Shown here: piece after piece, positions 12,130 to 45,482 of the stretch
Layout: each line of letters begins with the position of its first letter
How positions within the stretch are numbered: the first letter of the stretch is position 1
NCBI GenBank assembly: GCA_034401795.1
Contig: CM067363.1
Location: 25,409,103 to 25,473,102 of the forward strand
DNA length: 64,000 nucleotides
Reading direction: 5' to 3'
DNA from: Chaetoderma sp. LZ-2023a
Lineage: Eukaryota; Mollusca; Caudofoveata; Chaetodermatida; Chaetodermatidae
Program-made: the position numbers and the translations under genes
Notes under the pieces: generated by a model
What the model saw: only the letters and a program-made list of their open reading frames with translations
Told to the model about the DNA's origin: nothing
The model's database searches: none

Positions 12130-13724
12130 TGCGTGTGTAGTCTTGTTTACTTAACCCACAATGCTAAGGTCTACCTGTTGCAAATTTCATTGTGTTAAAC
12201 TTATTTGCCGATTTCATTATAATAATACAATTTTATTGGGAATAATGCGTTAAGTTATACAAGAATCTTTGCTAGTTAATATATTTAAATACCATATTAT
12301 ATTAGCATATTTGTCCGATATTAATCAATCTTCACAAATAGTATGTATGCACAAAAGGGTTTGAATGCCAATTAGTATTTATATGCAAAAACGTATTGAT
12401 ATCCACATCTACTAGTGATTTTATTTATGTGTTTATGATTTCGCTGATTGGGGGTTGAGCTAGATCATGCGCTTTTCTCAGGTATTCAGGTATATTGCAT
12501 TCCAATGGCCTCGTGCATTTAGGGTATATAAAGTCAGCCGTGGCATCTTGGTCATCCGTCCAACGTGTACCAGTGCAACATTTTCAATTCTAGCTGTGCC
12601 ATTCGCTAGACTCGGCCGCACCGTGAGACAAACTAACATTCTCTGCACCGCCTTTTCACGATCGCTTACTACATGGGGAAGCTTTTGAACTTTCACCCGT
12701 TCCAGCAAGTTCCGCACACCTGGCTTATTGTGATCTCTCACTGTCGAGGATTAAACCACCGCAGGACGTTGTGCATTGGGAATATACTACCAAGGCTGGT
12801 TGAAAGCCGACAACACTCGCAATAGCAAGACCTAGACCCCGTGTTTGCGTGACTGTTTCTGCCGTGACTGTGACTGTTACTACGACGTTTAGGAATTGAA
12901 CTGTGCACGATGAAGATGAATGCCAATCAGTATTTATATGCATATAAGTATTGATATCCAAATCTAGTAGTGACATTATTTATGTGTTAATGATATAGCT
13001 CATTGGGGGGGTTGTGCCAGATCATGAGCTTTTCTCAGGAATTCAGTCTTATTCAGGCATCGTGCATTTATGGTATTTAAAGTGCCCTGTGATAGGCACA
13101 CTTGTCACCCGTTCAACGCGTATCAGTCCTAGCTTGGACCTGCGTGATTGATAATGACCTAGAGGTCAATCGACATCTTGAATCGACCGTCGTCATGTTG
13201 GTTCACCAGTCGTCATCTTGGATCACCAGTCGCCATCTTGGATCACCAGTCGCTATCTTGGATCACCAGCCGTTATCTTGGATCACCAGTCGCCATCTTG
13301 GATCACCAGTCGCCATCTTGGGCCATTCTACGCCATCTTAGTTCAATGGTCACCATTTTGGATCGCCAACTATCATCTCGAATTGGTAGCAGCCATATTG
13401 GATCACCAATGTGGTGAAAACTAGACATTATCATGTAAACGGACTTCACAAGTTCTTGACCAGATAATGTAGCTTACTGGTCCAATGCTGGGACGATACC
13501 ATGCTGGTACATTCAGTAACGGCCTGGTAGCGACCCCGCATCGGCCCAGTAAGCTGCGTGGTCAGGGTATATCCATTTAATGAATTACTATTAGTGTAAT
13601 GTATTTTCTCGGCAAATCATTTCACTTATGTAAAGTGAGTATATTGCTTAAATTATCTGATTCGAACATTAAATACATTTTTCATGAATTTCTTATTCAT
13701 TGAATTTCATTGAAGATTGTGACA
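12130..13724. repeat. Duplicated segment A (direct copy at 26990-28480)
   Basis: Landmarks shared in order with 26990-28480: TTGTTTACTT, CCGATTTCATWATAATA, TTAGTATTTATATGCAA, AGATCATG, the GTGCAKTTAGRGTAT block, the TTGGATCACCAGTC tandem units, GCAGCCATATTGGATCA, GATACCATGCTG, and GTAATGTATTTTCT. This copy contains an internal tandem duplication: 12340-12590 resembles 12910-13140, while the other copy has it once. The block carries TATATAAA (near 12525) or TATTTAAA (near 13075), possibly a TATA element. An 87-codon minus frame at 12478-12741 lies between the tandem copies; it matches no family I recognise. Confidence 0.8.
13160..13412. repeat. 20-bp minisatellite of CGCCATCTTGGATCACCAGT
   Basis: About a dozen head-to-tail units of 20 bp, the central ones nearly identical and the outer ones decayed. 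Each central unit contains CGCCATCTTG, which fits the YY1 binding consensus. The six-frame reading is repetitive (SWITSRHLG...) and not a gene. A shorter decayed version lies at 28040-28205. Confidence 0.93.
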
Positions 13725-14485
13725 GGACCAATTTATTGAAATCTGCTTCTAACTATCCTGTCATATCTTCCCGGCTAATAGGTTAGGATAGTGTTGTTTT
13801 ATCATATTAAAAATATCTATCCCCACCTTTCCGCGTAACAGTGTGACGTCCTGTCTAATGGAAATGGTGTAATAGGGTCATATTTCCGAGAATTTATGCT
13901 ATTCCCAGCATGTAATAACTGACAGAGAGCACGCAAAGCCTAACCCTGGATTAGCTTTACTACCGTTTATGATTGTTCCTTAGCATGTGTGATGGAAGCC
14001 ATACACCCATTAACAGAACAATCAACTTTATGGTCGAAAATTGTTCTAGTAGGACAATTACATTGCAATGAGGATATGGCTGTTAGCAATGATAATTAGG
14101 TGGTACATTGCAAAGTTGTCGTATAACACGTGTTTTGTTTCTAGATTGTCAACGATGGACTGTGTATATCTATGGCACGCAATATTTCTACCACCTCCCT
14201 GGATGTATGGTTATCTTTAGCTCCAAAACCCAGGTGACTGACGGACAGCAGCTGTGTTTCATGATCTATGTGTACGTGATGGTTACCAGGTAGTTTTCTT
14301 ACACGCTGAGTCTGGACATTAAATGATGCTATATTTAGTGATTCTGGTGTGATAACCAATATTGCTACCTTTTCCAATAGCACGTACAACTTGTACGAGA
14401 TAGTGGGAGGATTATTAGCAATGGAGCTTTGGTAAGAATTGTACCCATGTATCCAAAAATAGAAGAACACACGTTTTTGTCACAT

Positions 14486-16282
14486 TGAAGATTTTCGGAT
14501 GTGGGCTTGGCCTTCGCAATTACTAGAATCTACTAAAAATGATGACTGAAGTTCACTCCTTCTTACTAGCCGGTGGCTTTTGATGTTGCTGTGACAACGT
14601 CGGTCGACTGGTAAGCGGGAGCGAAGGACAACTCGCTCGCATCGTTTGACTGATGGTAATAGACGATATTTATTCTGAGTTGCTCTGGACCTATCTGACT
14701 GGGTCTAGATTGCAGGTAAGGACTGGGTGTTTCTCCCAGCTCAGCTTTAGGTTCCATTCAACGACAAACTTGTGACTTACATATACGTAAGTTGATCGAT
14801 TTATTTACATTAAGTACAAGATAAGCTTTTAATAATAATTCGAGCAAGCTCGTTCCATACACATATACTTTGTACAATTCTTTGTAGACGAAATAACATG
14901 GTCTAATTTATCTAATCTGACATATCAAAATCCTACCCTAACAAGTAAGCCATCGTTAGGCTATATCTGCCGCGGCCTAACCAAGCAGCAATGTTTGCGA
15001 TTTCTCGGCGAATCAGAGATTAACTTTATCTGAGAGATGTTCCATTATTTATACTCTCAGATTATGACTTTTCAGTACTCTGGCCATTTACCAGAAATGC
15101 ACAACTCCTCTCAAAACTTATTCTTATGATTCTTTTGGGAACTTGATAAGCACACTTTGATTGGCCAAACAATAAAGTCACCAATCAACTACCGCTCATC
15201 TCTTCCTAGAAGTTCTGACCTGATAACTAATTGGTCCTTCCAACCAATCAGGGATTCCTCCCTCACTTGGTATCTAATACAACTTATTCATTATAATTCT
15301 TTACTGCAGCGTCTGATTGATCTCGATTGGTTATGACGTCATTCTGACCAATCATACTCTGCCCAACCCTTCATAGAAGATGTGTACGTCACATATTCAA
15401 AGCAGTGGGAACCGGTTCTGGTTTGATGTGATCTGTCAGCTAACTAACAATATTATGGTATGCCGTGTTGCTGCGTACCACACAATGAGTGGCATATAGT
15501 TTATCAATAATTTCGATTCTGTTATGAATTCCTATAGGATGTTCTAATGTCCATGTCCTGTCCACTCTATACTAATGCAGAAGTCTCGAGACTCCTAGGG
15601 TGCTAGGCACATGTGCTGGATGATTCATTGCCAGATGGTGTTGTTCTAGTCCACGATCAAATATCAGTCTGCTTACGTCATCAACTGTGCCAGTTAGTCA
15701 CGTTCACTTTATTCTCATGATTCATGATCCCAACACTTGCCACTAAACATTAATTAATTCCAAAACTACAACTATCAACAACTGCTAAATATAATAAAAG
15801 TGGTTGTCTGTTAAGCAGCAACAACCTTTAACTAAATCATTCTCAAATACACATCAACTCAGAACCATAGAATCATTTCCAATTAAATCTTCTTATTCCA
15901 ACATCATCATATTAATCTCATCTTCTGGTTACGTAACGACATAAACAGCATCCTATTCAATTAACATTAGTACACTTTATTAGATATAAAGAGATGACCT
16001 GGCTGGTTCGACTTTCCACCGTCCCAGTGATTGACATATATTTATAAATAACAGATGGTCGACTCAGCCACGTACATGGATGACACTTAGTCATCCTAAC
16101 TTTCCAACTTCGAATTGTATGTACATAAATATCAACGATGCAATATTACCGCATCCATTTTAGCTCACCTGGACTTTTAGCTCACCTGGTATTTTCAAAT
16201 CTTAATTTAACTTTGGGTGATATGTGAATTATAAGACACCCCGCGGGGTCATGGCTTCCCACGTGTCAATCCCATATTTACA
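14486..16282. mobile_element. Solo LTR-like element, copy B (about 1.8 kb)
   Basis: Homologous to 4230-5741, starting TGAAGATTTT and ending ATATTTACA. The inverted arm has no such insertion: its complement reads GTCACATGATTAAAAG at 42175-42190. Here the same phrase is split as GTCACAT | element | ACACGATTAAAAG, giving a 4-bp target duplication ACAT/ACAC with one change. The empty site fixes both ends and shows insertion after the arm duplication, or loss of a clean copy from the other arm. No coding region is visible. Class as solo LTR is inferred from TG...CA ends. Confidence 0.78.
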
Positions 16283-16707
16283 ACACGATTAAAAGTCATT
16301 CTCGACACTATTATTATGTAGTTGATCCGAAACGATAGACTATGATTCGATTTCTGTATGTTTCTGTATACTGTATTCAATTTATTAAAAATATACATGT
16401 ATATATTTTTTCACTATGTGAAAATCGGAAAATTCTGAATAATATTTGGGGACATGTCGATTATTTTGAAATTATTTTCAATGAAATGAATTTCAAAATA
16501 TTTACCAATACTATTCGGATTACTAATGCTCGCGTGTGTCCAGACTACGCCACTGAATTCGCCACTACAACTTCCCACATTGGATATACTCGATATATCG
16601 ATATATCTTGATATATTTTGTAATCTATGCATCATACTATTATATATCGTGCAGCTCCACTATGGTACAGACCCGATCCGCGAATACATGGATTTACGTA
16701 TGTAACC

Positions 16708-16944
16708 TAATGGAGGAATAAAATGTGTCACCCAATTATATGATGCCATGAGGCATTACGTCACTTGATGGCCGTCGTCACAATCATAATGACTTAGAAT
16801 GCTTCGTCATGAAGTGGGTGAACTCCGTCAAGTGTACGAATTGAATGTCTTGTATGATTTACAATTGTTATAAACATGCTGTATAATATTTTGAAACTAA
16901 CTACATGTAGACTGGGAGCTGGCATATTCAATAGCTTAAAAATA
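16708..16944 (-). mobile_element. Family P MITE, split by a younger MITE
   Basis: The CRE-half (TTACGTCACTTGATGG, GTACGAATTGAATGTCTTG) is followed by GCTGTATAATATTTTGAAACTAAC and then a broken palindrome. The colinear copy in the other arm (41545-41815) has an intact palindrome, so this one decayed after duplication. Confidence 0.68.
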
Positions 16945-17198
16945 AAATTGTCATAGTTGTATACTTTTAGAGGCTTAAATTGTGAGCCTAGATGTAATGA
17001 AACGAAATATATCTTAAAATACTATGATAATTTCTAGTTGTGAATTTGAATTAGTACTTGCGACTCTAATTCAATTTCACAAATAAAAAATGATATTAAT
17101 TTCTTAGGAATGAAATCATCATATTCTAAGATTTATTTTGTTTCATTACATATAGGCGCGTACGTTAAGCCTCTAAAAATAAACAATTGTAACAACCT
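16945..17198. mobile_element. MITE with about 60-70 bp terminal inverted repeats
   Basis: The left arm (TTTTAGAGGCTTAA...GATGTAATGAAACRAAATA, from about 16965) and right arm (complement of ...TGTTTCATTACATATAGG...TTAAGCCTCTAAAA, to about 17180) are reverse complements. The match extends outward in weaker form to about 16949 and 17197. The centre is a second small palindrome (TGAATTTGAATTAG / CTAATTCAATTTCA). It is absent from the other duplication arm, so it is younger than the duplication. No coding capacity. Confidence 0.8.
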
Positions 17199-17859
17199 TA
17201 TGTTCACGCATTCTGGTGTGAATAAGCATCTTTAAAACTTGTATTCTCAGAATTCTGGGTGAAGCGTGGCTGGAAATGGACCGCTCCATTGCTACACCGA
17301 CTTACCGATGAATACAGATCTGTTTAACCACCAGTATGTTGTAGCATATAGCTTCTTAACTTTCGACGTCTGGTCATTGGTCAAAGTATTAAATCGTTCA
17401 ATGACTTTATACCAGCATATGGTATCAGATATAATTAATTTTGAAATCCAGATCCGATCATGTCATATTATTTAAATTAGTGGATATTTAATACAAGGTG
17501 GCTCAATACCAGCACTGCCAAATATTGCTTGCCGGAGAAATTGTTTCAACAGACCGTGACCAAAGTCATCATCCATGCTTAATAATCTTTGCCCGGGAAT
17601 GATATGCCATGAATTATGTAAAACATATTGAGTAAACTTGATATGTAACGATCGCTTTGAAACAGACACTCAACTGATCGCGGTAATAGCAATCTGTATT
17701 GTTCATAAAGCAATACCATCAACTGAATAGGTCAGTATTTGCAAATTTCCAGATTTGCCGTATTTTCAGGATTACGATAAAGCTGTGGAAAGGTAGTCTA
17801 CGGCCATACCATTATGCGGGTTATAGTTTGAGATAAATCTGTGTAGAGGGGCTCGGAAT

Positions 17860-18300
17860 ATCCATAGAGAGACGGAGATAGATTGGAAGATAAGGTATGA
17901 GAGAGCGAGAAAGCGTGGAGAGCGATAGCGAGCGATAGATAGTGAGCGTGTGCGAGAGAGTGCGAGAGAGTGCGAGAGAGCACACGAGAGGAGAGTTACA
18001 AGGAGCGGTAACCAGAGAGTTAAGCGAGAGGGTAGGGGCAAGGGAAGAGACGGGGAAAGAGGCAACGGAAGGGGAGATGGCAGTGGAAAGGGTATGGTAG
18101 ATGCCAGCGGAGAGGAGAACGGCGGGGGTGGCGGGTGGGTGGGGAGGGGGTGAGAGGGGACACACGTGGGGCGAGAATATTGGAGTGGGGAGATGAGAAG
18201 TACGAGGTGAGAGAAAGGGAGATTTAGAGGGAAGGGGAGAGAAAAGGAAATTACATTAGGGGCTTATATGGGGGCGTGTTGGGTGGTGGGGTGGAGGGGA
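17860..18300. repeat. AG-rich low-complexity tract D
   Basis: GAGAGAGCGAGAG and GGGGAGAG purine-rich sequence. Equivalent tracts lie at 29010-29640 (same orientation) and 40640-40990 (reversed, CT-rich). All are joined to the same downstream block (CATTCAATCTGGAAT, then ATTTCCAATC and CCTGCATAC), so they are copies of one locus. Confidence 0.88.
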
Positions 18301-18783
18301 GAACGCGAAACGACCTTATCCGCATGATACATTCAATCTGGAATGATCAAGGTCAATGCATATTTCCAATCACCGTAAGAGGAATATTATTATTATTATT
18401 CCTGCATACCAAAAAGAATTTCCATTCCACATTTGTACAATTATATTCCTAATTGACTAGAAATGCATCACTGAATTATATGTGTCGTGATGTAACGTGG
18501 CCATTAGTGTTTGCTAGCACGGAACATTCTTTTATTATGCCAGAGTCTCCATTATGAAATCACTAATGTACACTTCCTTCGCGCGAGCATTAGGCCAGAT
18601 TCCTTTTTCCGTTTACTTGTATCCAATTTTGATAATGTTGCAATGCAGATAGGGTTAGTTACTGCGATACAAAGTATGCTAATTCATATCTATATGAGGA
18701 CGACAGCAGTATCTATCGTACACCGCTACACTCGTATGCTGTTTCTGCTAGATCGGATGATGAATCTACTTATCCCCAATGGA

Positions 18784-19192
18784 CCTTTATGGTTTTAGCT
18801 ATGCCTCGCCTATCTCTAGCTAAGCTCCACCCACACCCCACTCATGTTGGGATCGATCGATCTCTGAACACCCTGACTATCAATTTCCCAAAAAACTACA
18901 CAGGTACGCTGTTGAATATTTTGAAACTAATTTGACTGGGTGCTGTTGCTGCCTAAGGCAGCAACAGCGCCCAGTCAAATTAGATTCAAAATATTCAACA
19001 GCATGTTTATGAAATAGCAAAGAATTACAAAGACATACAATTCACACAACGTGTCGGACAATTTGAGATTTTGATGACGGTCTATATGAAATCTTTTTTG
19101 ACGAAATGATTGTGACGTCATCATACATGCGCTGGGCTGATTATGACGTCATACGAGGTCAGATGATGGATGATGGATGTATACTCTGGAAA
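18784..19192 (+). mobile_element. Family P MITE, near full length
   Basis: From GGACCTTTATGGTTTTAGC through the GATCGATCG block to the palindrome CTGTTGAAT...ATTCAACAG at 18909-19001. Each arm of the palindrome is about 44 bp with a loop near CTAAGG. The right half has CGTGTCGGAC and two TGACGTCA sites (19113-19120, 19144-19151), ending GATGGATG...CTGGAAAGGT. It is a good reference copy for the family. Confidence 0.85.
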
Positions 19193-19225
19193 GGTGAATT
19201 CGTACCCGAAGAAATTAATACGATG

Positions 19226-19443
19226 GACGACTCCAGTTTTAGCTATGCCCCACCCAAAAAGTTTCAAAATATTCAACAGCATGTTTATTAAATAGTAAAG
19301 CCGGGGAATTCGTAGAACAACACATAGTCCGTCATCAATTAAGCGCTCGTGACGAACTTAGCTGCGTCATTCATGACGTCATCTCACATGTCAAGTAGTT
19401 GATTATGCCGTCATATGATTGATTGATAAACTGGAATCCTCAA
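19226..19443 (+). mobile_element. Family P MITE with internal deletion
   Basis: It begins TCCAGTTTTAGCTATGCCCC and jumps directly to the right arm of the palindrome (GTTTCAAAATATTCAACAG). It then has ATGTTTATTAAATAGTAAAG and a CRE-rich tail (TGACGTCA at 19374), ending GATAAACTGGAA. The left palindrome arm is deleted, so it cannot fold like intact copies. Confidence 0.8.
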
Positions 19444-19924
19444 TTTATTTGGGGCATTTAACAGGAACGTATGGTATTTGATTTATAACGGGCGAGCAGG
19501 ATGTTGTGACAATAACTGATTCCGCCGATAGTCCATTTGTCTATCTAGATGGTAACTGATCAGAGAACTGGTAATGTGGCTAGATTACCTGACAACCGAG
19601 CAAAGAGTTTAATTATCAAAGATCAGACTTGTCACCATTAATGGTGAGGCCGACGGTTAAAGGTGATGTTTAATCAACATTAGTGAATGTATCATTGGGG
19701 ACTGAATTGGACATAATCGTGCTTTATTGATGGAGATTTCTCTCGTCTCTACAATTCTACTTTAGCAATGCTCTTTAACAGACGAGGATAGGTTCTAGGC
19801 TCGAATAATGCTTAAGCATGGCCAACTATTCGCTTACCACATTGCAACTGTACACTATTTAAGGATGATTGCATTAGCATTTGAATAGGGTAAGAGGCAA
19901 ATATTTGTGTAGCATTAATTAATT
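19444..19924. other. Duplicated segment F, non-coding
   Basis: Homologous in reverse to 39060-39500 and, in direct orientation, to 31120-31390. Three copies share TATGGTAT, GCGAGCAGGA, GTTGTGACAAT, TAATTATCAAAGAT and GTGATGTTTAATC phrases. No reading frame is conserved, so this is shared non-coding DNA. Confidence 0.7.
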
Positions 19925-20262
19925 AATGAATCCAATCTATCACGTGTAGACTGGTGCCATACTCATTTACGTCATGAATGACGACATTACGCCCTCCATA
20001 AGCTCTTAATAGTCCGCCATGTTGAACGAGCTATATGACTTTTCTATTTAATACAAATTCTGTTGAATAGTTTGAAACTAATTTGACTCAGCGTAAGGCA
20101 GCAACATCACCTAGTCAAATTAGTTCAAAATATTCAAAATCTTACCAGTATAATTTTCCTGAAAAAAATTGAGATTCAGGGATTTCAGAATTCGATTGAT
20201 CCCAACACTGGCGATGTGTGGGCAGATCATAGCTAGAGTTTGGCGGGCATAGCTAAACTGTA
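19925..20262 (-). mobile_element. Family P MITE, loop-deleted
   Basis: The CRE-half comes first (TTTACGTCATGAATGACG), then TCTGTTGAATAGTTTGAAACTAATTTGACT, a shortened centre, AGTCAAATTAG and TTCAAAATATTCAA. It ends in the GATCCCAACACTGGCG block and GGGCATAGCTAAACTG. It is colinear with 38645-39000 in the other arm. Confidence 0.78.
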
Positions 20263-20589
20263 TTCATTCATTGAGATATACATTGTCCATGCCGTTTCCG
20301 TATTTGTGCAAACACAGAGGGTGAGTAGACCATTGATAGGCCGTTAAGGTCTTTCTTACTTATTTGACAAGTGATTGACGTCAAGCGTTGTCCTTTCAGA
20401 GAGCTTATTGAAAGCGTAGCGTGAAAGTAATCATGTTAAAAATAATGTCCACCGTATGCTTGATTTGTCACAAGTGCGTTTTGTATGCACGACCTTTTGT
20501 GTACCATATGCACGTTATCACCTTTTCTATGTAGGCACTTACCATTAGAGAGTGTTATTATCGAGTACACATGAGGTAGGAATGGATGA

Positions 20590-20660
20590 TCCCATCCTTA
20601 GCTATGCCTTGCCCATGACGTACTTGATTGTAACGTCATATGATTGATCGATAGACTGTA
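20590..20660 (+). mobile_element. Family P remnant: termini only
   Basis: TTAGCTATGCCTTGCCC is joined directly to ATTGTAACGTCATATGATTG and the right end. The equivalent site in the other arm (about 37950-38325) carries a much longer copy, so about 300 bp was lost here after duplication. Confidence 0.65.
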
Positions 20661-20917
20661 TGCATCTGTTTAAGGCATTATCCCAATGCTATACGCAGAG
20701 CTAAAAAACCTAGACAATCTCACCATGGTCACAATCGATAGATTCTCACAGTACGTTTGTTACTGTCTAAAAGCATATTTTTGCCTCCTGTCAAAAACAC
20801 TTCAAAGTCCTCAAAATGCTACTTATAATAATAAGCCATTTAATGGTGGCGATTTTCTAAGAAACTTTTCTAAGAACTATTTTTTTGCTTAGGGACTGGC
20901 TATTTATAGGCCAGGAG

Positions 20918-21689
20918 GCGTATGCATAAGACATCTTAAGTGTGAAAAATCCCTTAATTTCTAATAATTTCCTTAACATTTACCTACGAGTATATCCTTA
21001 CTTTAAGTGTTATGCATAAAGATTCATAAGATAAGAATTTTCTTATAAAGTTCCTTAATTTTAAGGTACCTATTCCATTTTCATAAGTTAACATTTTGCC
21101 CTAAAATCAGTAACCTTCAGTCGTGAAGTGAGTTTGCAGAACTTGTCGACGCAATATTGTAAGAGAAACTGGCTCTTATCCTAGCCGAGATGCTTGAGGT
21201 AGAGGAACTAGAACACGTTGTACGGAGGCCTAGAATATTTCGCGCCCGTGAAAATCCGATGGATATTTACAAGGATCAAGAAATTTACCGCAGATTTCGT
21301 TTTGACAGAGGTGGCATTCTTTTCATCACGGATCTTCTGGCACCTTCAGAAACCATGCGATTCCACCTCTCCTCTACTCCAAGTTTTTTTATGCTCGTCG
21401 GTTCTACTCATGTGGTAGCCTCCAGCAATGAAATCAGCATTACAATGTATTTTTAGAGACTTGGAAGTTGTAACAATGGTTTTCATTGGTCAATACCTTT
21501 TGCCATACAGTAGCCTAAGGATAAGAACTTTCCTAGTAGTTAGGAAAATCCTTAGCTAAGGAAACTCTTAAGAGTGTTTATGCAAAGTACTTAAAAGTCA
21601 TCCGTAGCAAAGTATATTAACCGTTTAAGTAAAAGAATTCACTTAAGTTGAGGAAGTTTTATCCACACGTGCCCCCCCCCCCCCCCCGG
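20918..21689 (+). mobile_element. Truncated Harbinger element with transposase fragment
   Basis: Inserted between two identical AGGAG pentamers (20913-20917 and 21690-21694). The other arm reads straight through as AGGAGAAG near 37570, an empty site. Ends are imperfect inverted repeats (left GTATGCATAAGAC; right complement GTGTGGATAAAAC), the right one followed by a run of about 17 C. Inside, 21190-21456 encodes a typical Harbinger N-terminal region: RARENPMDIYKDQEIYRRFR, then GILFITDLLAPSE. After a frameshift near 21350 comes NHAIPPLL and RRFYSCGSLQQ. The catalytic DDE domain is absent. It is a different Harbinger lineage from the 0.9-1.9 kb relic. Confidence 0.82.
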
Positions 21690-21857
21690 AGGAGATGATT
21701 TTTTTCTAACTTTAAGACGAGAATTTACAAAAGACCTGTTTCGTTTGTTCTGTAAATACATGTTTCGCCAGACCACTGGAAAGGCCGTCTTGGCTGGCTT
21801 GTGAGTTAACGCTTTCATGACGAGGCCGGCCACAACCCGCCTCTGTAGTGGTCTTGG

Positions 21858-21992
21858 GGAATGTCCATATGCAGGCCAAGGGAACATTATTTTTGAAAGT
21901 TTATCACTCGAATGACTGGCGCAATAACCGAGCCAGTCATTCCAATGGTAATTTTTTCAAAAATAGTTTTCTCCTGCCCTGCATTCAATAAG
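21858..21992. repeat. Family Q palindrome
   Basis: A palindrome of about 135 bp: AATGTCCATATGCAGGCCAAG...GAATGACTGGC, a short loop, GAGCCAGTCATTCC...TTTTTCAAAAATAG...CTGCATTC. The colinear partner is 37276-37412. Confidence 0.82.
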
Positions 21993-22257
21993 TAAATGTT
22001 TTAATTTATTTAACAAATTTAGTCAATAAAGGGTTAAATGGTCAATGGTCAAGAAACTAGAATCCTTGCCTAGTCAAAGTCCGCTTGCAGGCAAAGCGAA
22101 TGCGAGAAAATCTACCTCTACAATGATTAGTTCTGTTAAACAGGATGCATTTATCACATCACTTCGACAAGAATTGGACGTCGTAGATAACCTGATTGAT
22201 TTTCCAGTCAAATGGGTCGTAGTGTCTCGACATTCAAATAACCGATAGTGTAATAAC

Positions 22258-22478
22258 TGCCATGGTAGCAACAGCGCCCAGTCAAATTAGGTTCAAAATA
22301 TTCGACAGAATGTTTATTAAATAGTAAAGACATATAATTCATACAACCTGATGGCCTAGTAAGCGTTTAATTTGGACTAAATCGAGCCATTCATGAGATA
22401 ATGATTATTACGTCACCCTACACGTCACGTAGTTGATTATGACGTAATATGATGGATGAATAAAATGGAAAGGTCACT
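22258..22478 (+). mobile_element. Family P MITE, left half missing
   Basis: Starts inside the palindrome (GGTAGCAACAGCGCCCAG), then AAAATATTCGACAGAATG, TTTATTAAATAGTAAAGACA, CRE-like sites and GGATGAATAAAATGGAAAGGTC. Confidence 0.78.
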
Positions 22479-22499
22479 TCCCTTAATGGCAACTGTTTT

Positions 22500-22790
22500 T
22501 TTTACGTTTATACAACACAACCCGTGTGGCCTTGATGCTGTATAACTGTAATAGCTGGGCATCCCTAATGACAGCTCTAGATAAACTAGATGCCTGCCAC
22601 CATAAACACCTCCGCGCAATCACTGGAAACCGATGGCCAGACAGCATCATTTCCAACGATGAACAATGCAAGATGTGGAATAAATCGCCACTGTCCGTAA
22701 GAAACCAGGTTCAGTAAACTCAGATCAAGAATGGACCTGGGGATGTTTCCCCTACTACATCCGAAATTACAGTAAGCATACATACATTAT
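22500..22790 (+). pseudogene. LINE reverse transcriptase C-terminal fragment
   Basis: Encodes LMLYNCNSWASLMTALDKLD, ACHHKHLRAITGNRWPDSII and SPLSVRNQVQ. This is the stretch downstream of the RT domain in the same LINE family as 50.1-52.7 kb. It is 5'-truncated with no catalytic region. A matching fragment lies inverted at 35980-36160 in the other arm, so this insertion predates the duplication. Confidence 0.8.
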
Positions 22791-22802
22791 AGTAGTAACA
22801 GC

Positions 22803-22806
22803 AGTG

Positions 22807-22855
<49 letters not shown>

Positions 22856-22908
22856 AAGTAGTAGTAGTAGTAGTAGCAGCAGTAGTAGTAGTAGTAGTAG
22901 TAGTAGTT

Positions 22909-22944
<36 letters not shown>

Positions 22945-23006
22945 TGGGTAGCAGCAGCAACAGGAGCAGCAGCCGCAGAAGCAGCAGTATCTGTAGCAGC
23001 AGTAGA
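22803..23006. repeat. (GTA)n microsatellite with CAG-rich tail
   Basis: GTG/GTA trinucleotides to about 22944, then GCAGCAGCAACAGGAGCAGC-type sequence. Its partner in the other arm (35836-35970) is the reverse complement (TAC)n at the colinear position. Poly-Leu, poly-Val and poly-Tyr frames here are artefacts. Confidence 0.95.
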
Positions 23007-32592: not shown

Positions 32593-32664
32593 CCGTGTGT
32601 AAATTCAATCATAACTCTAGCTAGGCAATGATATCAGGCATGGATCAATATGCATGGCTTTGCA

Positions 32665-34536: not shown

Positions 34537-34839
34537 ATTGTTATATTGCAAGGCCTAACTCAGAAAGACTCTCATGTCGGCCTGACATAAATGGTCGGCT
34601 TATAACGGAACTATATTTAGTAATGGCAGCCATCGTCAAGAGGTTTCGTGTTGCATGGGACCAATAGAGTACCGTGCGTTAAGACATGTTTCGGTACATC
34701 AGAACTTTGTATTCCCAGAAGGCATTCCTTACCACATGTTAGTGTACATGTATCCGCGTTGAATAATGAAGACACGCATGTATGCCAAGAAATCTAGATA
34801 GTAACTACGCAAATACACCATACATATTACAGATTGAAT

Positions 34840-34912
34840 ATTTGGAGGTTAATTTGCTTGACGATATTGCGGCTATCGGCAGCAATAGTTTCCAATTACC
34901 TTCAAAGTACGA
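34840..34912. repeat. Diverged P-type palindrome (subfamily P2)
   Basis: GATTGAATATTTGGAGGTTAATTTGC, a short centre with GGCTATCGGCAGCAATAG, and TTCAAAGTACGAAG. Inverted partner of 23866-23995. Confidence 0.66.
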
Positions 34913-35176
34913 AGCACACTAATTCAAATTTGTGTTCGAATTATTTAACTGGTAAATGATGCTGTGATATGATACATAGTTAGTGGTAGAAAAAGCGAAA
35001 AGTCATGTCAATTCTCTAATTAACTCACAAAATAATGTTGTATTTACGCGCAAATTTGTGGAAACTCGATTCTTCTATGACAAGATCAGCTGTCAGTACC
35101 AGACTTTTTAGTAATCCGAAACACCGCCCACGTCTGACCGGTGTATTAACGCCCTCGATGGTGCAAAATAGCCTGT

Positions 35177-35207
35177 TTCATTAGGACCACTAGTCCTAAT
35201 GAAACAC
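35177..35207. repeat. Perfect 13-bp-stem hairpin
   Basis: GTTTCATTAGGAC, a 5-nt loop, and GTCCTAATGAAAC. The partner site in the other arm (near 23600-23635) has only a diverged version. Confidence 0.8.
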
Positions 35208-35414
35208 CATCATTGGGACCTAAAAGCATTGTGGTAACCGACCACCTCTCTTAAGCTACCATTTTAATGGAAACATGCTATAGGTCGGGTTCCCTCTCTC
35301 CGCGTGTTTTACGTGAAGCATAAGATTCCACGCGGTCCTTTCCTTATATGTCCTACGGCCGTCTTCATACACATCTTAACCATTTAACTCCTGAGAAAAT
35401 TTCAATGTTCTCAT

Positions 35415-35545
35415 AGAAAATGCCCACTTGCAGACGAAGAGAATACTGTTATGGAAAATTTACCACTAGATTGACTGGCTCGGTGATCGAGCCAGTCATT
35501 CCAGTGGTACATTTTCAAAAATAGTAGTCTCTTGCTCTTGACATT
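35415..35545. repeat. Family Q palindrome
   Basis: AAATGCCCACTTGCAGACGAAG, AAAATTTACCACTAGATTGACTGGCTCG, GTGAT, CGAGCCAGTCATTCCAGTGG and TTTTCAAAAATAGTAGTCTC. Partner of 23232-23372. Confidence 0.83.
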
Positions 35546-35835
35546 TCTCAATACCACTATAAAATCTCTTTATGGCTGATGTGAGGGATGACCGGTTAAG
35601 CCAAGAATCATATGATGTAGGACACCATCCATTCTCTCCGACATGTTACTTCCTGCCATTATAGACATAATTTGGCTAAATTATAGGATTATCTTGCAAT
35701 GTATTAACGAACACACAATAGGTACTAGATATCGTGTCCACCTAGATTCAAAGAACGGCTATCTAAGCTCTACCAAATGTGCACACGCGGTGGTGCCGAT
35801 TGTAAACAATATTATATGAATAATTACAGTACACT

Positions 35836-35970
<135 letters not shown>

Positions 35971-35979
35971 TTCTTGATC

Positions 35980-36160
35980 TGCTTGTACTGAACCTGGATT
36001 CTTAGGGACAGTGACGATCTATTACACAACTTGCATTGTGCATCGTTTGAAATTATGCTGTCTTACTATCGGTGTCCAGTAATGGTGCGAATGTGTTTGC
36101 TGTGGCAGGCATCTAGTTTATCTAGAGCTGCTTTTGGAGCTGTTCAGCTGTTATATTTAA
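35980..36160 (-). pseudogene. LINE RT C-terminal fragment (partner of 22500-22790)
   Basis: The complement carries the same order of phrases as the 22.5 kb fragment (CTGAACCAGGTT-type end, GCAAGTTGT, GTTTATCTAGAGCTG on this strand). It is more decayed, with no usable frame. Confidence 0.72.
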
Positions 36161-36167
36161 GAGAATT

Positions 36168-36432
36168 AACCTTTCCAGGTTATTCATCGATCAAATGACG
36201 TCATAGTCATCTATGTGACGTGCATGGTGACGTCATAATCATTATGTCATGAATGACGGAGGCAGCAACAGCAACTATTCAAATTACCTTCAACATATTC
36301 AATAGGTTACTCGAACAGTTTTCTGGAAATTGATAGTCAGGAAGTTCAGAGATCGGTCGATCTCAACACAAGCGAGATGTGGGTGGAGCTTAAACCGAGA
36401 TGGGCGGGGCATAGCTAAAACTGAAAAGTTCT
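36168..36432 (-). mobile_element. Family P MITE, one stem arm lost
   Basis: AACCTTTCCAGGTTATTCATCG, two TGACGTCA sites (near 36196 and 36228), the left palindrome arm deleted, GGCAGCAACAGCAAC, CAACATATTCAATAGG, GATCGGTCGATC and ATAGCTAAAACTGAAAAG. Confidence 0.78.
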
Positions 36433-36574
36433 ATTATCCCCGTGCATCGAATTTGCCAGGAATAACGCGAGAATCGATAATCACAATGGAGGGATTGGAT
36501 CTGCCGTCAATATCAAATAAGCACTGTAGTAACTGCCGTCACAATCAAATGAATTCTCTGTCATAAAATCCGAA

Positions 36575-36882
36575 AGGTCTTCCAGGTGTATGAATTGTAT
36601 GCCTTAGATATGCTAATGAAGTTACAATTGAAAACACATTCTGTTAAATATTTTGAAATTAATTTGACCGGAGTCTGGTGCTGCCATAGGCAGAAACATC
36701 CCCCCCCCCCCCAGTTAAATTATCTTTACCATATCAGCCAGCGTACCTGCATACTTACCTTGCCATTGGGGTCTGGTAGTTCAGTGTTCAGAGTATTTAA
36801 ATCGATTTCAACAAACGCGCAACGTTGGCGTAGGACCGCTAGAAATGGGTGGGGGGGGGCATAGCTAGAAACGATTGTGGAT
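36575..36882 (-). mobile_element. Family P MITE, decayed, with C-run
   Basis: TGTATGAATTGTATGCCTTAG, TTCTGTTAAATATTTTGAAATTAATTTGACC, GCTGCCATAGGCAG, a run of about 14 C, and GGGGCATAGCTAGAAACG. The CRE half and the outer left end are reduced. Confidence 0.72.
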
Positions 36883-36989
36883 AGACTCAATGGCCGTTAT
36901 TTAATATGTGTGGTCAGTTGATCATATGTGGTGTAGAAATGGCATAATATGTTTCAAGAAATGAGGTGGTCTCTTGAAAAGGTTGACAT

Positions 36990-37130
36990 AAATTCTGATT
37001 TATTTGACACTGAGTTATTACAGTATCGTTTACCTGCATGCTGAGACACTACTACCCACCTGTCTGGAAAATCAATCAGGTTATCTACAACGCCCATTTT
37101 TTGTCACCGTGATGTGATAAACGCATCCAG
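36990..37130. repeat. Dispersed non-coding block also at 62340-62500
   Basis: GATTTATTTG, TGCTGAGACA and TGTCTGGAAAATCAATCAGGTTAT are shared, in the same orientation, with 62340-62460. This shows that pieces of the duplicated unit exist beyond the two arms. Confidence 0.65.
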
Positions 37131-37275
37131 CCTAACTGAACAAAGCATTGCGGTGGCAACGTTTCTCGCATTCTCTTCGCCTGCAAATGGTCACTGACTA
37201 GGCGAGGATTCGATTTTCCTGACCATTAACCTTTAGTGACTAAATTTGTTCAAGAAATTAAAAAATTTACTTATT

Positions 37276-37412
37276 GAATGCCCATTTTAAGGCGAAGAGA
37301 GGACTAGTTTGAAAACATTACCATTGGAATGACTGGCTCGGTTATCGAACCAGGCATTCCAGTGATGAATTCTCGAAAATAGTCTTCTCTTGGCCTACAA
37401 ATGGACATTCTC
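37276..37412. repeat. Family Q palindrome
   Basis: GAATGCCCATTTTAAGGCGAAG, ACATTACCATTGGAATGACTGG, GTTAT, AACCAGGCATTCCAGTGATG and CTTCTCTTGGCCTACAAATG. Partner of 21858-21992. Confidence 0.82.
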
Positions 37413-37949
37413 CAATACCACCGTGACTACAGAGTCCGATTTTGGCCGGCGTCAAATCAGCCAAGACGGCCTTTGCAGTGCTCTGGCTAAACATGTATAT
37501 ACAGGACAACCGAAACAGGTCTTTTGTAAATTCCAGTCGTAAATTTCGAAACAAAATTGGACTTCTCCTGCCCTATAAATATACAGTCCCCAAGCAAAGA
37601 AATTAAATTTTCCTTGAAAATTGTTACCGTTAAATGGTGTATACGTAGTATTTTAGCACTATGCAGCGTTGTTGACAAAAGACAATAATATGGTTTTAGG
37701 CAGTAGCGCATGCGTTGTGAGAATATATCCATTGTGACCAGGGTGGGGTTGTTTAGATTTTTAACCTTTGCGTAGCTTGGGGTATTACAGCTTTGCCAAA
37801 TGTAGTTTGGATACTATTGTGACGGAGAGATTTCTGGATGTAGGCCTATACTAAACAATGTGTGCTAAATATCCATAAGGTGCAATTGGACAACTTCAGA
37901 TTTTAGGGCTGAGCATAGCATTGGGATAATGCCGTAAATAGATGAATAC
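37413..37949. other. Duplicated non-coding segment; empty site of the Harbinger fragment
   Basis: Matches 20690-20917 and 21690-21857 in reverse with no Harbinger sequence between; the junction lies near 37568. Short frames here are not preserved in the partner. Confidence 0.6.
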
Positions 37950-38325
37950 AGTCCATTGATCATTCATATGGCATCATAATCAATCGCGTCGCCCGCAGGC
38001 TATCATCATAAGCAATTACGTCGTGAATGGCGCGATTAAGTTCGTCATTTAACGTGTAATAGTTAGTTAAGTTGCACGGATTGTATGCTTTTACTATTTA
38101 ATACACACTAGCATTATGTTGAATACTTTGCAACTAATTTGACTGGGCGCTTAGTCAAATGAGTTTCAAAATATCCAACATCATACCTGGACAGTTTTCT
38201 GGCAATGCGAGATTAAGTGAGTGCCGCGATCGATCGATCCCAACACGGGAAAACGTGGAGTTGATGGAACTTGTCCTGCTTAGCTAGAGATGGGGGTGGC
38301 ATAACCACGGATGGGATCATCCATT
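37950..38325 (-). mobile_element. Family P MITE, palindrome shortened
   Basis: CCATTGATCATTCATATGGC, TTACGTCGTGAATGG, TATGTTGAATACTTTGCAACTAATTTGACTGGGCGC joined directly to TTAGTCAAATGAGTTTC, then CGATCGATCGATCCCAACAC. Confidence 0.75.
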
Positions 38326-38644
38326 TCTACCTCATGCGTACTCGATAATAACACTCTGTAATGTTAAGTGCCTACATAGAAAAGGGTGATAACGTGCATA
38401 TGGTACACAAGAGGTCGTGCATACAAACCTCACGTGCGACAAATCAAGCACACGATGAACATTATATATAACTTGATTACAATCACACTACGCTTTCAAT
38501 AAGCTCTCTGAAAGCACAATGCGGACGTCAATCACTTGCCAAATAAGTAAGAAAAACGGTAACAGCCTATCAATAGTCTACTTACCATGTGTTTCACATA
38601 TACGGAAACGACATGGACAGTGTATATAGCAATGAATGAATACA
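38326..38644. other. Duplicated non-coding segment G
   Basis: Reverse match to 20280-20590: CTCGATAATAACACTCT, AGTGCCTACATAGAAAAG, CGTGCATATGGTACAC, TGACAAATCAAGCA-type phrases and CAATAAGCTCTCTGAAAG. No gene. Confidence 0.6.
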
Positions 38645-39000
38645 GATTAGCTATACCTCGCCAAACTCTAGCTAAGATCCACCCACACATCGCCAGTGTT
38701 GGGATTGATCGAATACTGAATTCCCTGAATCTCAACTTTCGTAAAACTGTACAGTAGGCTGTTGACTATTTTGAAACTAATTTGTCTGGGTGATGTTGCT
38801 TCATTACGCCGAGTCAAATTAGTTTCAAGAAATTCAACACACTTTTTACTAAAAAGAAAATACATACAATTCGTACAACATGACGGACTATTAAGAGTTT
38901 ATGACGAACGTCATTCATGACATAAGCGATTATGACGTCAGGCTACATGTGATGTAGCTGATTACAATGCCATATAATTGGTTGATTGATTGGGTTCATC
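38645..39000 (+). mobile_element. Family P MITE
   Basis: TTAGCTATACCTCGCC, GTTGGGATTGATCGA, GCTGTTGACTATTTTGAAACTAATTTGTCTGGG, shortened centre, AGTCAAATTAGTTTCAAG, TATGACGTCAGGC and a weak right end. Partner of 19925-20262. Confidence 0.77.
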
Positions 39001-39504
39001 AATTAGTTAATACTCGACAAATATTTGCATTTTAGCCTATACAAACGTTGATGGTATCATCCATACATATGGTACAGTTGCAATGGGGTAAGCGGATAGG
39101 TGCCCATGCTTAGACATTATTCGAACCGAGAACCTATCCTAGTCCGCCAGAGAGCATCGATGAACTAGTATTGTAGAGATGAGAGAGTTATCTATTAATA
39201 AAGCACGCTTATGCCCATTCAGTCACCAATAATACATTCACTAATGTTGATGAACCATCACCTTTAACAGCCAGCTTTAGCATTAATGATAATAAGTCAG
39301 ATCTTTGATAGTTATACTCTCTGCTCGGTGGTTAGTTAATCTAGCCACATTACCAGTTCGCTGATCAGTTACCATCTAGATAGACAAATGGCCTAACGGC
39401 AGAATCAGTGATTGTCACAACTTCCTGCTCGCCTGTCATAAATCAATACCATATGTTACCGTTCAATGTACGGAACAAATTGAGGATTCCAGTTTCTCAG
39501 TTAA

Positions 39505-39858
39505 GTGTATGATGCCATAATCAACTACGTGACGTGTGGGATGACGTCATAGGTAACTACTTCATTGCTGACGTAGGTAAGTTCGCCACGAACGGTTAAT
39601 TGATGACGGACGAAGCGTTGTTGTACGAATTGTAATTCTTTGCTATTTAATAAACATGCTATCGTATATTTTAAAACTAATTTGTCTAGGCGTTACTGCT
39701 GCCATAGGCAGCAACAGCACCCGGTCAAATTAGTTTCAAAATATTTAACAGCTTGTCTGCGTAGTTTTCTGAAAATTGATAGGCAGGGAGTCAGGGGCTG
39801 GGGGCAATCGAAAGCTGGTTGGAGCTTAGCTAGAAATGGGCGGGGCATAGCAAGTCAA
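39505..39858 (-). mobile_element. Family P MITE
   Basis: GATGCCATAATCAACTACGTGACG, GATGACGTCATAGG, TTATTTAATAAACATGC-type phrase, palindrome at about 39656-39755 (GCTGCCATAGGCAGCAACAGC centre) and GGGCGGGGCATAGC. Confidence 0.82.
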
Positions 39859-40394
39859 TGCATCATCCGATCTAACAGAAACAGCTTGTGCATCATTGTC
39901 CGGTAGATTATGCAATCTTGTCACCATAGGATATTTTGTATTGCAATAACCAACCCTATCTACCTTAAATCAGCATCATCGAAATTGGATACAAGTAAAC
40001 AGAAAAAACGAAACTGGCCTAATGCGCACGCGAAGGGCATGCACATTAATGATTTTAAAATGGAGAGTCTGGCATAATAAAGTAATGTTGCGTGCTAGCA
40101 ACAACACTAACGTCAATGTTACGTCACAACATATTTATAGCCTACTGAAGCATTAGTTCTCAGGGAATTAGGAATCTATTTGTGGAAAGTTATTAAACTG
40201 ATTGAATGCAACTTCTTCTCAGTATGCAGGAATAATAATAATAACAATAACTCCCTTACTGTGATTGGAAATATGTTTTCAGCTGGATCATTCGAGATTG
40301 AATGCATCATGCGGATAATGCCTTTCGAGTTCTCTCAACCTCCATGCTTACCACCACCCGCACACACACCACCAACACGGCCCCCATAACCCAC
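39859..40394. other. Duplicated segment E/D flank, non-coding
   Basis: Reverse match to 18320-18690: CAATAACCAACCCTATC, TCGAAATTGGATACAAGTAAAC, GGAGAGTCTGGCATAATAA, TATGCAGGAATAATAATAATA. Confidence 0.62.
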
Positions 40395-40990
<596 letters not shown>

Positions 40991-40999
40991 CTCTCTATC

Positions 41000-41544
41000 G
41001 ATATCCCGAAAACTATATCGCTATCCCGAAAACTTCTAAATCGATTTGGCTCAACTTATGAAATTCCAAATAAAAACGACCCATTCTCGTCTACATGGCA
41101 GCTGCTGGTCTGGGTTTATAAACAATACAGATTGTTATTACCGATATCAGTTGAGCTTTAGTTTCAAAACGTTACATATCAATTTTGCTCAATATGTTTT
41201 ACCATGGCATATAATCACCAGGAAAAGTTTATTATGCATTGGGTGATGAATCCGGTCAGAAACTGTTGAAACAGTTTCTCTGACAAGCGATATTTGGCAG
41301 TGCTGATGTTGTGTCACCTTGTAGTAGATATCCAATAATTCAAATAATATGACATGTTCGGAATCTGGATTTCACAATTAATTATTTCTGATATCCTGAA
41401 ATAAAGTCATGGAACAATTTAGCACTTTGGCGCTGATCATACAGTTAAGATGTTAGATGCTATAACATACTGGTGGTTAAACAGATCTGTGCTCATTGGT
41501 AAGCCGCTTGGAATTATGAGCATTCCAATTTTAAGGTAACTATA
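41000..41544. other. Duplicated segment C, non-coding
   Basis: Reverse match to 17260-17770, including GTTGAAACAGTTTC / GAAATTGTTTCAAC and TTAAACAGATCTGT / ACAGATCTGTTTAA pairs. No gene. Confidence 0.6.
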
Positions 41545-41815
41545 CATTTAATCTATTGCAAATTTTAAAACTAGTTTGACTGGGTGCTGTTGCTGTACAT
41601 TGCAGCAACAACTCCCAGTCGAATTAGTTTCAAAATATTCAACAGAAAGTTAATAAAATTATTAATCCTTCAAAGACATACACTTCCTACACTTGACGGA
41701 GCTTTCCAGCTTTATGACGAAGCAATCTACGTCATTATGATTGTGACGACAGTTATCAAGTGACGTAATTTCACATGAAGTTAAATAATTGGGTGACAGA
41801 TTGGATCCATCGATT
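41545..41815 (+). mobile_element. Family P MITE, left half reduced
   Basis: CTATTGCAAATTTTAAAACTAG, GGGTGCTGTTGCTGTACATTGCAGCAACA, AGTTTCAAAATATTCAACAG, then TACACTTGACGGAGC and TGACGTAATTTC. Partner of the interrupted copy at 16708-16944. Confidence 0.78.
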
Positions 41816-42865
41816 AGATCACATACGTAAATTCATATATTGGCGGATCGTGTCCATACCATAGTAGAGCTGCACGATATATAATATTGTGACGCATAGA
41901 ATACAACATATATCAAGATATATTGATATATCGAATTTTCTTATGTTGGCAGTTGTCTTGGCGAATGGAGTGGCGTAGTTGGGATACACGTGAGAATAAG
42001 TAATTCCAAAATATTCTACCGTTCTCCATACATTCATAATTTTCCGATTTTCAGTTAATAAAAAAGATTTAATTATGTTGAACATTGAATACAGATATAT
42101 TGAAACCAAAAGAAATCAAGTCTTAGTGTATTTATTGGGATCAACTACATAATAATAGTGTAGAGACTAGCTTTTAATCATGTGACAGAAAAGCATGTCC
42201 TTCACTTGTTTGGGCACATGGGCACACTTCTTACCAAAGCTCCATCGCAAATAATCATCCCACTATCTCTTCCAAATGTTGCCTGATGTACGGAAACGTA
42301 GAATAAACGTTTATCACACCAGACTCTCTAAATATACCATGATTTAATTTCCAGACGTGTAAACGACTACATGTTAAATATCACGTGACACACAAATCAT
42401 GAAACACAGCTGCTGTCCGTCAGTCCCCTGCGTTTTGTAGTTAAAGATAACCATACATCAAGGGAGGTGGTCGAAGTATTGCGTGCCATAAATAAACACC
42501 ATCTATCGTTGACAATCTGAAAACAAAACGCGTGTTATACGGCAACTTTGCAAAGCACCACATAATTGTCATGACTAACAGTCTCATTGCAATTTAGTTG
42601 TCCTAGTAGAAAAATCTTAGACCATAAAGTTGATTGTTCTGTTAATGAATGTATGCATTCCATCAGAAATGTTAATGAAAAGTCATAAATGGAATGACTT
42701 GTAGGTTGTAAAGCTAATCCATGGCTAGTCTTTGTGTGTTCGCTGTCAGCGATGCTGAGAATAGCATATATTCTCGGAAATATGACATTATTACACCATT
42801 TCCTTTAGACAGGACGTCACACTGGCACGTAGAAAGGTAGAGATAGAATATCTTTAACAAGACAC
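41816..42865. other. Duplicated segments C and B, non-coding
   Basis: Reverse match to 16290-16705 and 13860-14485, with the empty site of the LTR-like element at 42180-42183 (ATGT). No gene is visible in either copy. Confidence 0.6.
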
Positions 42866-43225
42866 ATTTTTCCTCTTGCGTTCACCTTTCTCATGACTGT
42901 AATCTTATACTATTTTCCTTATTTGGTGCATGGAATCTTCAGTGACCATCAAACTCTCTCGGTCTACTTTGATCTTCTCTTCAAAAGAGACGTAAATAGG
43001 CCAGACACTTCTCCTAGCCTGTTCATACCGCTGGTAGTGCTGCAAGAGATGTTGTGCTGTTTCGACTTCCTGCTGACACCAAGACAGTGCAGAATCTGTA
43101 ATCTTGAGGCAGCGAAGATGTGCATCGAGACGAATGTGGCCAGTCCTCAAAATCAAAGCTACACGTTTGATTCTCACGACAGAGTCTGTGCATTGCATAA
43201 TTAAGCTACCTGTTGGTATGACAGG
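42866..43225 (-). pseudogene. C-terminal fragment of a Jockey/CR1-type LINE polyprotein
   Basis: The minus strand encodes LRTGHIRLDAHLRCLKITDS, CQQEVETAQHLLQHYQRYEQ and ARRSVWP. This is the zinc-finger-like C-terminal tail after the RT domain in many Jockey/CR1-type LINEs (usual pattern RTGH..L..HL, C.C, E...HLL..C). The first Cys of the usual C.C pair reads W and the later Cys reads Y. It is absent from the other arm (near 13805), so it inserted after the duplication. It belongs to a different LINE family from 43.4-45.5 kb. Confidence 0.72.
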
Positions 43226-43445
43226 ACATAGGATAACGCAACCCTATCTTAGCATATTAATTGGAAGGATATGGCAGAATAGTTAGAAGCAGATGCCAAT
43301 AAATTGGTTCTATCAGGCTATCACAATCTTCAATGAAAATCAAAGAATAAGAAATTTATGAAAGATAAAGTAAATTTAATGTTCGAAGCAGCTAATTTAA
43401 ACAATATACACACTTTACATACGTGAAATGATTTGACAAGAAAAT

Positions 43446-45482
43446 ACATTAATCCAATGATGATGATTACTGTATTCCGCGGCTGTAGTAGTAGAAATAT
43501 CCTACAGCTCCAATCAGTAATTTTTCGCTTTTGCCTACTGTGGCCTGGACTCAGCCGAAATCCTTAGCTTCCTCAGGTCCATTCTTGATTTGAGTGTAAC
43601 GAGTCCTGTTTTCTTGAGGTCACCCCGTATCACGCTTAGTAGATTTAGGCAGCGATGCCCTCTGCTGGCTTTGTATTTGCTGGCTCCCTGCTGGACGAAT
43701 TCCAAGTCTCTCTGTGATGGCGTATCATCTGACATCCTTAACAAATGGTAAAAAGATTGATCATCTTTACTGGGCGACCTTTACAGACAACGGCGATGTA
43801 TTGCCCATCTTGTATAGTTCATTATGGAAATTATGTTGTCTGGCCACCGGTGTCCAGTGACCGTTGGTGTTTGCGATGTCAAGCATCAACTTTGTCTAGA
43901 GCTGCCGTTTGGCGCTGCCCAGCTGTTACATGTATACAGCATCAAGGCCACGCAGGTTGCATTGCATAGGCTTAGACTTTTTGTAAAGGCATCGTTGATC
44001 TACGAATCCATAGCTTCCAAGATTACTGGAAAGGTATGCGCCCTATGACGCAGTGTGCTTCTTTAGTTTCCCGCTTTGTAGATAGGTATATACGTGGGTG
44101 AACTCTGTCTTGGATTCATTTGTAAAGGCGTTCTCAATTTTTATTTTGCCTGCTACTATTGGAAGAAGTTCGTCAAGTGGTTTCTTTTTCTCGTCTATGA
44201 AGCCCACATCGTCGCCATATTCCATCTGGAATGGACACTGGGGGTTTTGGTCTTGTGGAATCTTCCTGAATGGATTTCAAGGCAGCAGCAAGGTAACCGG
44301 TAAAAATCACAGGGGGTAGACTATCCACATGTGGGGAGCCGAGTGATGTTTCAAACTCAACAGACTTCACTGACTCGATTCGTACTCTCAGCTTGGTGGC
44401 TGCAAGTAGTTGGCTCACTAGTCGTAGCTCAACTTCATTTCCACTGGCCTGACATAGAACGTCTAGAATATGTGACCGATTAATTGTGTCGAATGCTCGT
44501 GGTATGTCAAGTCCCACTTTGTGGAAATCCCAGTGTTTGGACATGACGACTGACACAAGCACACGTTGAGCCCATGCAATGTTTGAGCAGCTGCGTACAC
44601 GTTTGAAGCCATTTTGACATGATGACGATTCAGTCTCGGATGCGTCATAGACTAACATTGGATACAATTTTCCGTATGCTGTAGAGGAGCACAATGGGCC
44701 GCAGATTAGTTGGGGGACCAGATGGCCTCCTGGGCTTGGGTAGCGCGATAAGAGTGCCCTGGTATACAGCATCGATGGGCAAGTGGTGCATACAATCTGA
44801 ATCGATTAGATAATGTCACTTGCATATTTGAACAGTTCATTGCTTGTGCTATCAGGTCCAGATGCAAGTCCATTTTCCAGGGCCTTAAGCGGCTTCTCAA
44901 CCTCTGCTGTTTTAATTGGTGTTAGTAATGGCATGGCGTCTCTGGAGAACGGGTGAAATGTCTCATCATCGTGGTCAGTGAACTGTTCCTTGATGCATTC
45001 TCGAATTGCCTCGGATTTACGTTTGTCAGTCCCGATAAAGTGTCCTTCAGAGTTGTGTACAGTGAGCGGTGGTGTGTACTCAGTAACTCTCAGAGCTCGG
45101 GCTACCAGAAATATTGTGTGACAGTCATCCTTGGAACTGATTGCATTTGCCAGGGCGTCTGTTTGTTGAATAGAAAGATCTTGTAATCGTTCCGTGATGT
45201 GGCACAGAATGCTGTTGCGTTCCTGGTGCGGTCTTCAATGTGGCTACATTGATAGATGCACAGCCTTAACACTTTCTGCTCAGTTGATAGTTTTACTACT
45301 ACAGGGTCGTTAGTATACTTGGTTCTGTTGGTTTTGAGAGCTCCTACGGAGCTGGTAGCTGATGATTCCATATATTTCAGTATTTTGGTTAAGGCTTCGT
45401 TTGGATCGGAGCTGACGATAAGAACACGGAGTCTATAGATAATTCTAGTGTATGACACTGGGCTATAAATACGTTCAAGTAT
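43446..45482 (-). pseudogene. Decayed LINE, RT region and C-terminus, 5'-truncated
   Basis: Non-LTR retrotransposon of the same family as 50.1-52.7 kb. In coding order on the minus strand: NEALTKILKYMESSATSSVG (about 45390), then the RT domain after several breaks. AFDTINRSHILDVLCQA and LGSPHVDSLPPVIFTGYLAA lie between 44520 and 44300. MEYGDDVGF, the catalytic YxDD box as YGDD, is near 44220. The tail encodes LRMSDDTPSQRDLEFVQQGA and the LRKL end near 43560. Frames are broken by stops and shifts. The EN domain is missing, so it is 5'-truncated. The 3' end (CAATGATGATGATTACTG on this strand) lies on the outer edge of the right duplication arm. Confidence 0.85.

Follow-up and report, generated by a model that had tools for sequence, protein, structure and literature searches.

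Two long stretches of DNA lie in mirror image of each other on a single chromosome of the caudofoveate mollusc Chaetoderma sp. LZ-2023a, together with a shorter third copy between them. We read this locus, with a probability of roughly 0.8, as an old and decayed inverted segmental duplication of apparently non-coding DNA that has no function as a unit. The window that we analysed is a stretch of 64,000 nucleotides (C5:25409103-25473102), and positions to the left of its first base are given as negative coordinates. The genome searches covered the whole assembly, of 2.44 Gb in 2753 contigs.

Layout and extent of the arms

The first-pass annotation had placed a large inverted duplication at 13560-43460. 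A gapped comparison of 12000-28500 with 31500-44500 recovers it at nearly these coordinates, as a chain of 18 reverse-colinear blocks that joins 13597-26335 to 43451-32654 through 8073 aligned columns, at 77% identity by local alignment. We refer to the inner part of the left arm (13597-26335, + strand), which is delimited by these blocks and by single-segment genome searches, as arm A, and to its inverted copy, the inner part of the right arm (32654-43451, - strand), which rests on the same chain and on alignments, as arm B. One further piece, 18299-18681 against 40334-39927, matches as well and lies outside both the 18-block chain and the 17 block pairs aligned globally (below). The chain between arms A and B scores 5920 in the inverted and 665 in the direct orientation, while arm B shuffled 20 times in blocks of 10 bases scores 0-37. 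Four pieces of a 50 kb control stretch from another part of the genome reach at most 915 with arm A, a background that we put down to dispersed repeats in common.

The inner coordinates of the earlier description thus stand, but its outer ends at 13.56 and 43.46 kb do not, as the arms run further out on both sides. With 30 kb of flank added on each side, blocks from -13831 to -1780 (C5:25395271-25407322) pair in reverse order with blocks from 62920 to 45525, and the outer right arm (45525-62920, - strand) is accordingly a series of inverted colinear blocks, separated by large unmatched stretches. Matches of at least 200 bp across the axis number 133. Once 115 locally repeated ones are left out, 18 remain, 17 of them inverted and one direct; 16 of the inverted ones fall between -13.8 and 62.9 kb. 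We place the arm ends near -13.8 kb, outside the window on its left, and near 62.9 kb, because the edge block at -14533/63669 is a dispersed repeat (63253-63669 has a local depth of 25). We likewise rejected an extension to -29.7/97.6 kb: the left member of the one inverted pair that fits the order there proved to be a dispersed element, present in 39 other places at 77-84% identity, a case from which it follows that low local depth by itself is no proof of low copy number. The stretch of the left arm from -1780 to 13597 faces merely about 2 kb on the right (43451-45525), so sequence has been gained or lost on one side. The right end of the duplication is not fully visible, since 64001-71500, just beyond the window, reads N throughout (7.5 kb).

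Several other duplications were encountered in and around the window and in the genome. A direct tandem pair lies to the left of the inverted duplication (-41169 to -29815 against -27462 to -21149, about 6-11 kb, with blocks 75-91% identical). Within the window, 44061-45415 and 50900-52312 form an inverted pair, about 75% identical and with no Pfam match, whose frames carry what we take, by eye, to be a reverse-transcriptase-like motif; these are probably two copies of one LINE. A short inverted duplication of about 540 bases (53449-53977 and 54524-55063, 76% identical) surrounds a TA repeat. Searched with the haemocyanin beta-sandwich domain (PF14830), a molluscan family, the genome yielded 44 matches and 14 control genomes none, in keeping with its molluscan identity. 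Two sets of these, on the large scaffolds C8 (96985628-97015408) and C17 (62634297-62663657), have near-identical scores and spacing and represent either a region duplicated recently between chromosomes or an uncollapsed haplotype, and a further, less similar set is found on C1610. At C8:96367731-96397686, three haemocyanin matches on the + strand are mirrored by three on the - strand with similar spacing, perhaps another inverted duplication. In the 50 kb control stretch, the self-matches seem by eye to consist solely of dispersed repeats and tandem arrays. Given the tandem pair at -41169 to -21149 and the mirrored set on C8 near 96.37-96.40 Mb, local duplication, inverted duplication included, may not be rare in this genome.

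The third copy and the gap between the arms

The 6.3 kb spacer described earlier between the arms is present, yet it contains a partial third copy, copy C, and a gap of 500 N (28501-29000) that splits this copy in two. The first part of copy C (26999-28462, + strand, on the left contig) has stretches that match 12143-13694 directly, and the second (29100-31399, + strand, on the right contig) has stretches that match 17899-19759 directly and 40876-39164 in inverted orientation. Comparison with arms A and B suggests that the 500 N stand for about 2.4 kb of copy C. Searched through the genome, the 631-base segment 19370-20000 has three long matches in all among the 40 of 2535 candidates scored: arm A (bases 1-631 of the query), arm B in inverted orientation (4-573) and copy C (2-390). 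The otherwise old spacer also holds a 109-base direct repeat with 100% identity between its units (26753-26861 and 27085-27193), which points either to recent duplication on the spot or to a slip in the assembly.

Did the three copies arise in one event? They could be the fossil of an inverted triplication, produced by one complex replication error, with a palindromic junction that was later eroded. Over the 687 sites at which all three could be compared they are nearly equidistant overall (A-B 82.0%, A-C 80.1% and B-C 83.1% identity), and 59, 46 and 67 sites favour the A-B, A-C and B-C pairings, respectively. This near-even split speaks for a single event, but it comes from 687 sites, and the two stretches compared differ from each other. 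The pairings are favoured, in the same order, by 29, 19 and 42 of 344 sites in the first stretch and by 30, 27 and 25 of 343 in the second; this hints that B and C are nearer to each other in one part, and such a grouping in one of two stretches (42 against 29 and 19) counts against a single event. Furthermore, a simple inverted triplication has the order + - +, its middle copy inverted between two direct copies, whereas the order here is + + -, and the junctions are too decayed for reading. Human inverted copy number variants do offer a parallel, as inverted triplications with palindromic junctions that are rearranged later have been proposed for them (PMC10766186). We judge a common triplication origin less likely than not.

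As the gap lies inside the spacer, arms A and B are on separate contigs, and their place on a single molecule depends on a correct join at the 500 N. A scaffolding artefact, in which two contigs were misjoined head to head at this gap, would imitate a mirror-image layout, and the near-identical haemocyanin sets on C8 and C17, which could be uncollapsed haplotypes, lend this reading some colour. Three observations make it improbable. Parts of copy C flank the gap, and the copy runs on over it with order and orientation preserved; this supports the join, as two wrongly joined contigs would be unlikely to match in this way. The right contig alone carries an inverted pair between copy C and arm B (29515-31399 against 40490-39164), and the left contig alone carries a direct pair. 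Lastly, a divergence of 20%, as documented below, is too high for two haplotypes.

Divergence, content and copy number of the arms

Global alignment of the 17 block pairs of the inner and outer arms gives 79.8% identity over 12460 columns, a figure that includes the dispersed edge block -14533/63669, without which it becomes 80.1% over 12059 columns. Across the 17 pairs, identity varies between 70 and 85% in single blocks and between 54 and 95% in windows of 100 columns. The inner arms (10 block pairs, 7655 columns) are 79.9% identical and the outer arms (7 block pairs, 4805 columns) 79.6%, or 80.5% minus one dispersed-repeat block; with values this close, a single age would suit both parts. 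An earlier count had put the divergence at about 8%, but only the best windows are so close, the arms being about 80% and not 92% identical. The accompanying judgement that the structure is neither recent nor a simple haplotype artefact agrees with the roughly 20% divergence between the arms. Insertions specific to one arm were likewise correctly noticed: arm A contains a dispersed element of 1.8 kb (14479-16290), for which arm B has an empty site at 42180/42183.

The first-pass annotation had also considered the arms as substrates of gene conversion. As an ongoing process this is not supported: no homogenised stretch is seen between the arms; GC content is not raised in the arms (38.8% and 39.9%, against 42.4% and 40.6% in the flanks and 39.4% in the control); and the 1.8 kb insertion of arm A has not been transferred to arm B. 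The longest identical run between the arms is 36 bases, where about 35 are expected. Runs of at least 20, 25 and 30 bases number 38, 18 and 5, against 27.6, 8.9 and 2.9 expected under a uniform rate (Poisson p = 0.03, 0.005 and 0.17, respectively). The excess, twofold for runs of at least 25 bases, could come from uneven rates or from short, old conversion tracts.

In the parts tested, we found no coding signal, no RNA family and no bias towards RNA pairing. Differences between the arms fall on codon positions 1, 2 and 3 in the numbers 189, 177 and 183, summed over the 20 longest of 132 jointly open stretches, so that a third-position signal is absent overall; one stretch of 45 codons, at 25650 on the - strand, leans to the third position (3, 5 and 10). 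At the protein level, the matches listed between the arms occur in all six frames, with stops in common. Ten of the 140 listed open reading frames of at least 75 amino acids, three of them in the inner arms, were compared with Pfam, and one family exceeded the cut-off. This is a DDE_Tnp_4 transposase domain at 1232-1666 (E = 1.9e-20), outside the inner arms and presumably Harbinger-like. The window scanned against Rfam gave no match at the gathering score. These indirect tests are consistent with neutrality of the locus.

Could the arms nevertheless act as RNA? A transcript running through both would form a very long imperfect double-stranded RNA, which might be edited or diced and would then be a source of small RNAs or a substrate for RNA editing in this mollusc. 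Two arm pieces do have strong predicted duplexes, with an energy of -867.5 kcal/mol for one (three shuffled partners: -242 to -263 kcal/mol) and of -1152.3 kcal/mol for the other (three shuffled partners: -310 to -336 kcal/mol); 84.6% of the aligned columns would be pairable, and the longest uninterrupted stem is predicted at 41. Comparable energies would, however, be expected of any inverted repeat at such identity. A G-U pair is preserved by 602 differences and broken by 635 (359 and 399 in the inner arms), which gives no sign of selection for RNA pairing, and the Rfam result likewise speaks against a hairpin RNA locus. We consider such a role very unlikely. Extrusion of the DNA itself as a hairpin, also envisaged at first, would be unlikely given the 80% identity and the 6.3 kb spacer.

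The arms are of low copy number wherever they could be probed singly. Among the candidates scored, six arm segments have long partners only at this locus. For 13800-14500, both candidates were scored, and the two genome matches are the segment itself and arm B. The sole near-full-length partner of 23040-24250 is in arm B (among 40 of 4619 candidates scored), the sole long partner of -3900 to -1780 is at the mirror place, barring a dispersed repeat at its end (40 of 10680), and the sole full-length partner of -6413 to -5933 is again at the mirror place (40 of 41). Two mirror-place pieces cover 684 of the 801 bases of -13850 to -13050 (40 of 113), and the sixth segment, 19370-20000, is the one that also retrieves copy C. 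Weaker matches accompany most of these: partial ones for -6413 to -5933, including a local one at 46566-46796, shorter ones for -13850 to -13050, including 207 local bases at -1200 to -994, and short ones elsewhere for -3900 to -1780, 19370-20000 and 23040-24250. A search with the whole of 12000-26400 scored 39 of 70770 candidates and was filled by the 1.8 kb element, its own place not being listed, and it is therefore uninformative on the rest of arm A; all 30 of the 30 loci that it returned match inside 14479-16290, at 81-89% identity. A second dispersed element, about 210 bases long and partly self-complementary (23183-23391), is found at numerous genomic sites and is shared by both arms, and is thus probably older than the duplication. 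Dispersed repeats abound in the region. Even so, it is most improbable that the arms are a single very large transposable element present twice in opposite orientation, because the six segments (13800-14500 with all candidates scored, the others with part of them) lack the many long genome copies of such an element, while the true elements of the region returned dozens.

Origin and relation to known systems

On our reading, a segment, which today takes up about 40 kb on the left and about 30 kb on the right, gave rise to an adjacent mirror-image copy, the shorter and direct copy C arising at the centre around the same time. The likely route would be template switching during replication or repair of a broken fork. 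The copies would then have diverged, largely independently, through substitutions, gains and losses of sequence and transposon insertions, down to the present identity of about 80%, in a structure that presumably has no role as a whole.

Among known kinds, the nearest are inverted low-copy repeats and, as regards origin, inverted copy number variants from replication errors, so far as the latter are outlined in PMC10766186. The locus resembles inverted segmental duplications in having two low-copy arms on one chromosome that are tens of kilobases long, lie close together and share colinear homology in inverted order. Recent segmental duplications exceed 90% identity according to the summary in PMC4053137, while the arms here reach 79.8% over the 12460 columns of the 17 block pairs; we therefore file the locus as an old, decayed inverted segmental duplication and not in the recent class. 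It shares large inverted arms flanking a short spacer with the palindromes of mammalian sex chromosomes. Those palindromes have more than 99% arm identity maintained by gene conversion, as summarised in PMC8981503, whereas the present arms are about 80% identical, have no homogenised tract and yielded no arm gene in limited tests. ODIRA and DUP-TRP/INV-DUP structures, as sketched in PMC10766186 and PMC4352052, likewise have three copies at one locus, at least one of them inverted; the present locus differs from them in its + + - order, its old age and its unreadable junctions. A literature search over titles and the openings of abstracts retrieved nothing concerning this locus.

The arms retain no homogenised stretch, and the locus is otherwise an ordinary scar of genome rearrangement. 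Its third copy is usable as a check on a scaffold join. It also illustrates that a mirror-image duplication spread over about 77 kb stays recognisable at an identity far below the customary 90% cut-off.
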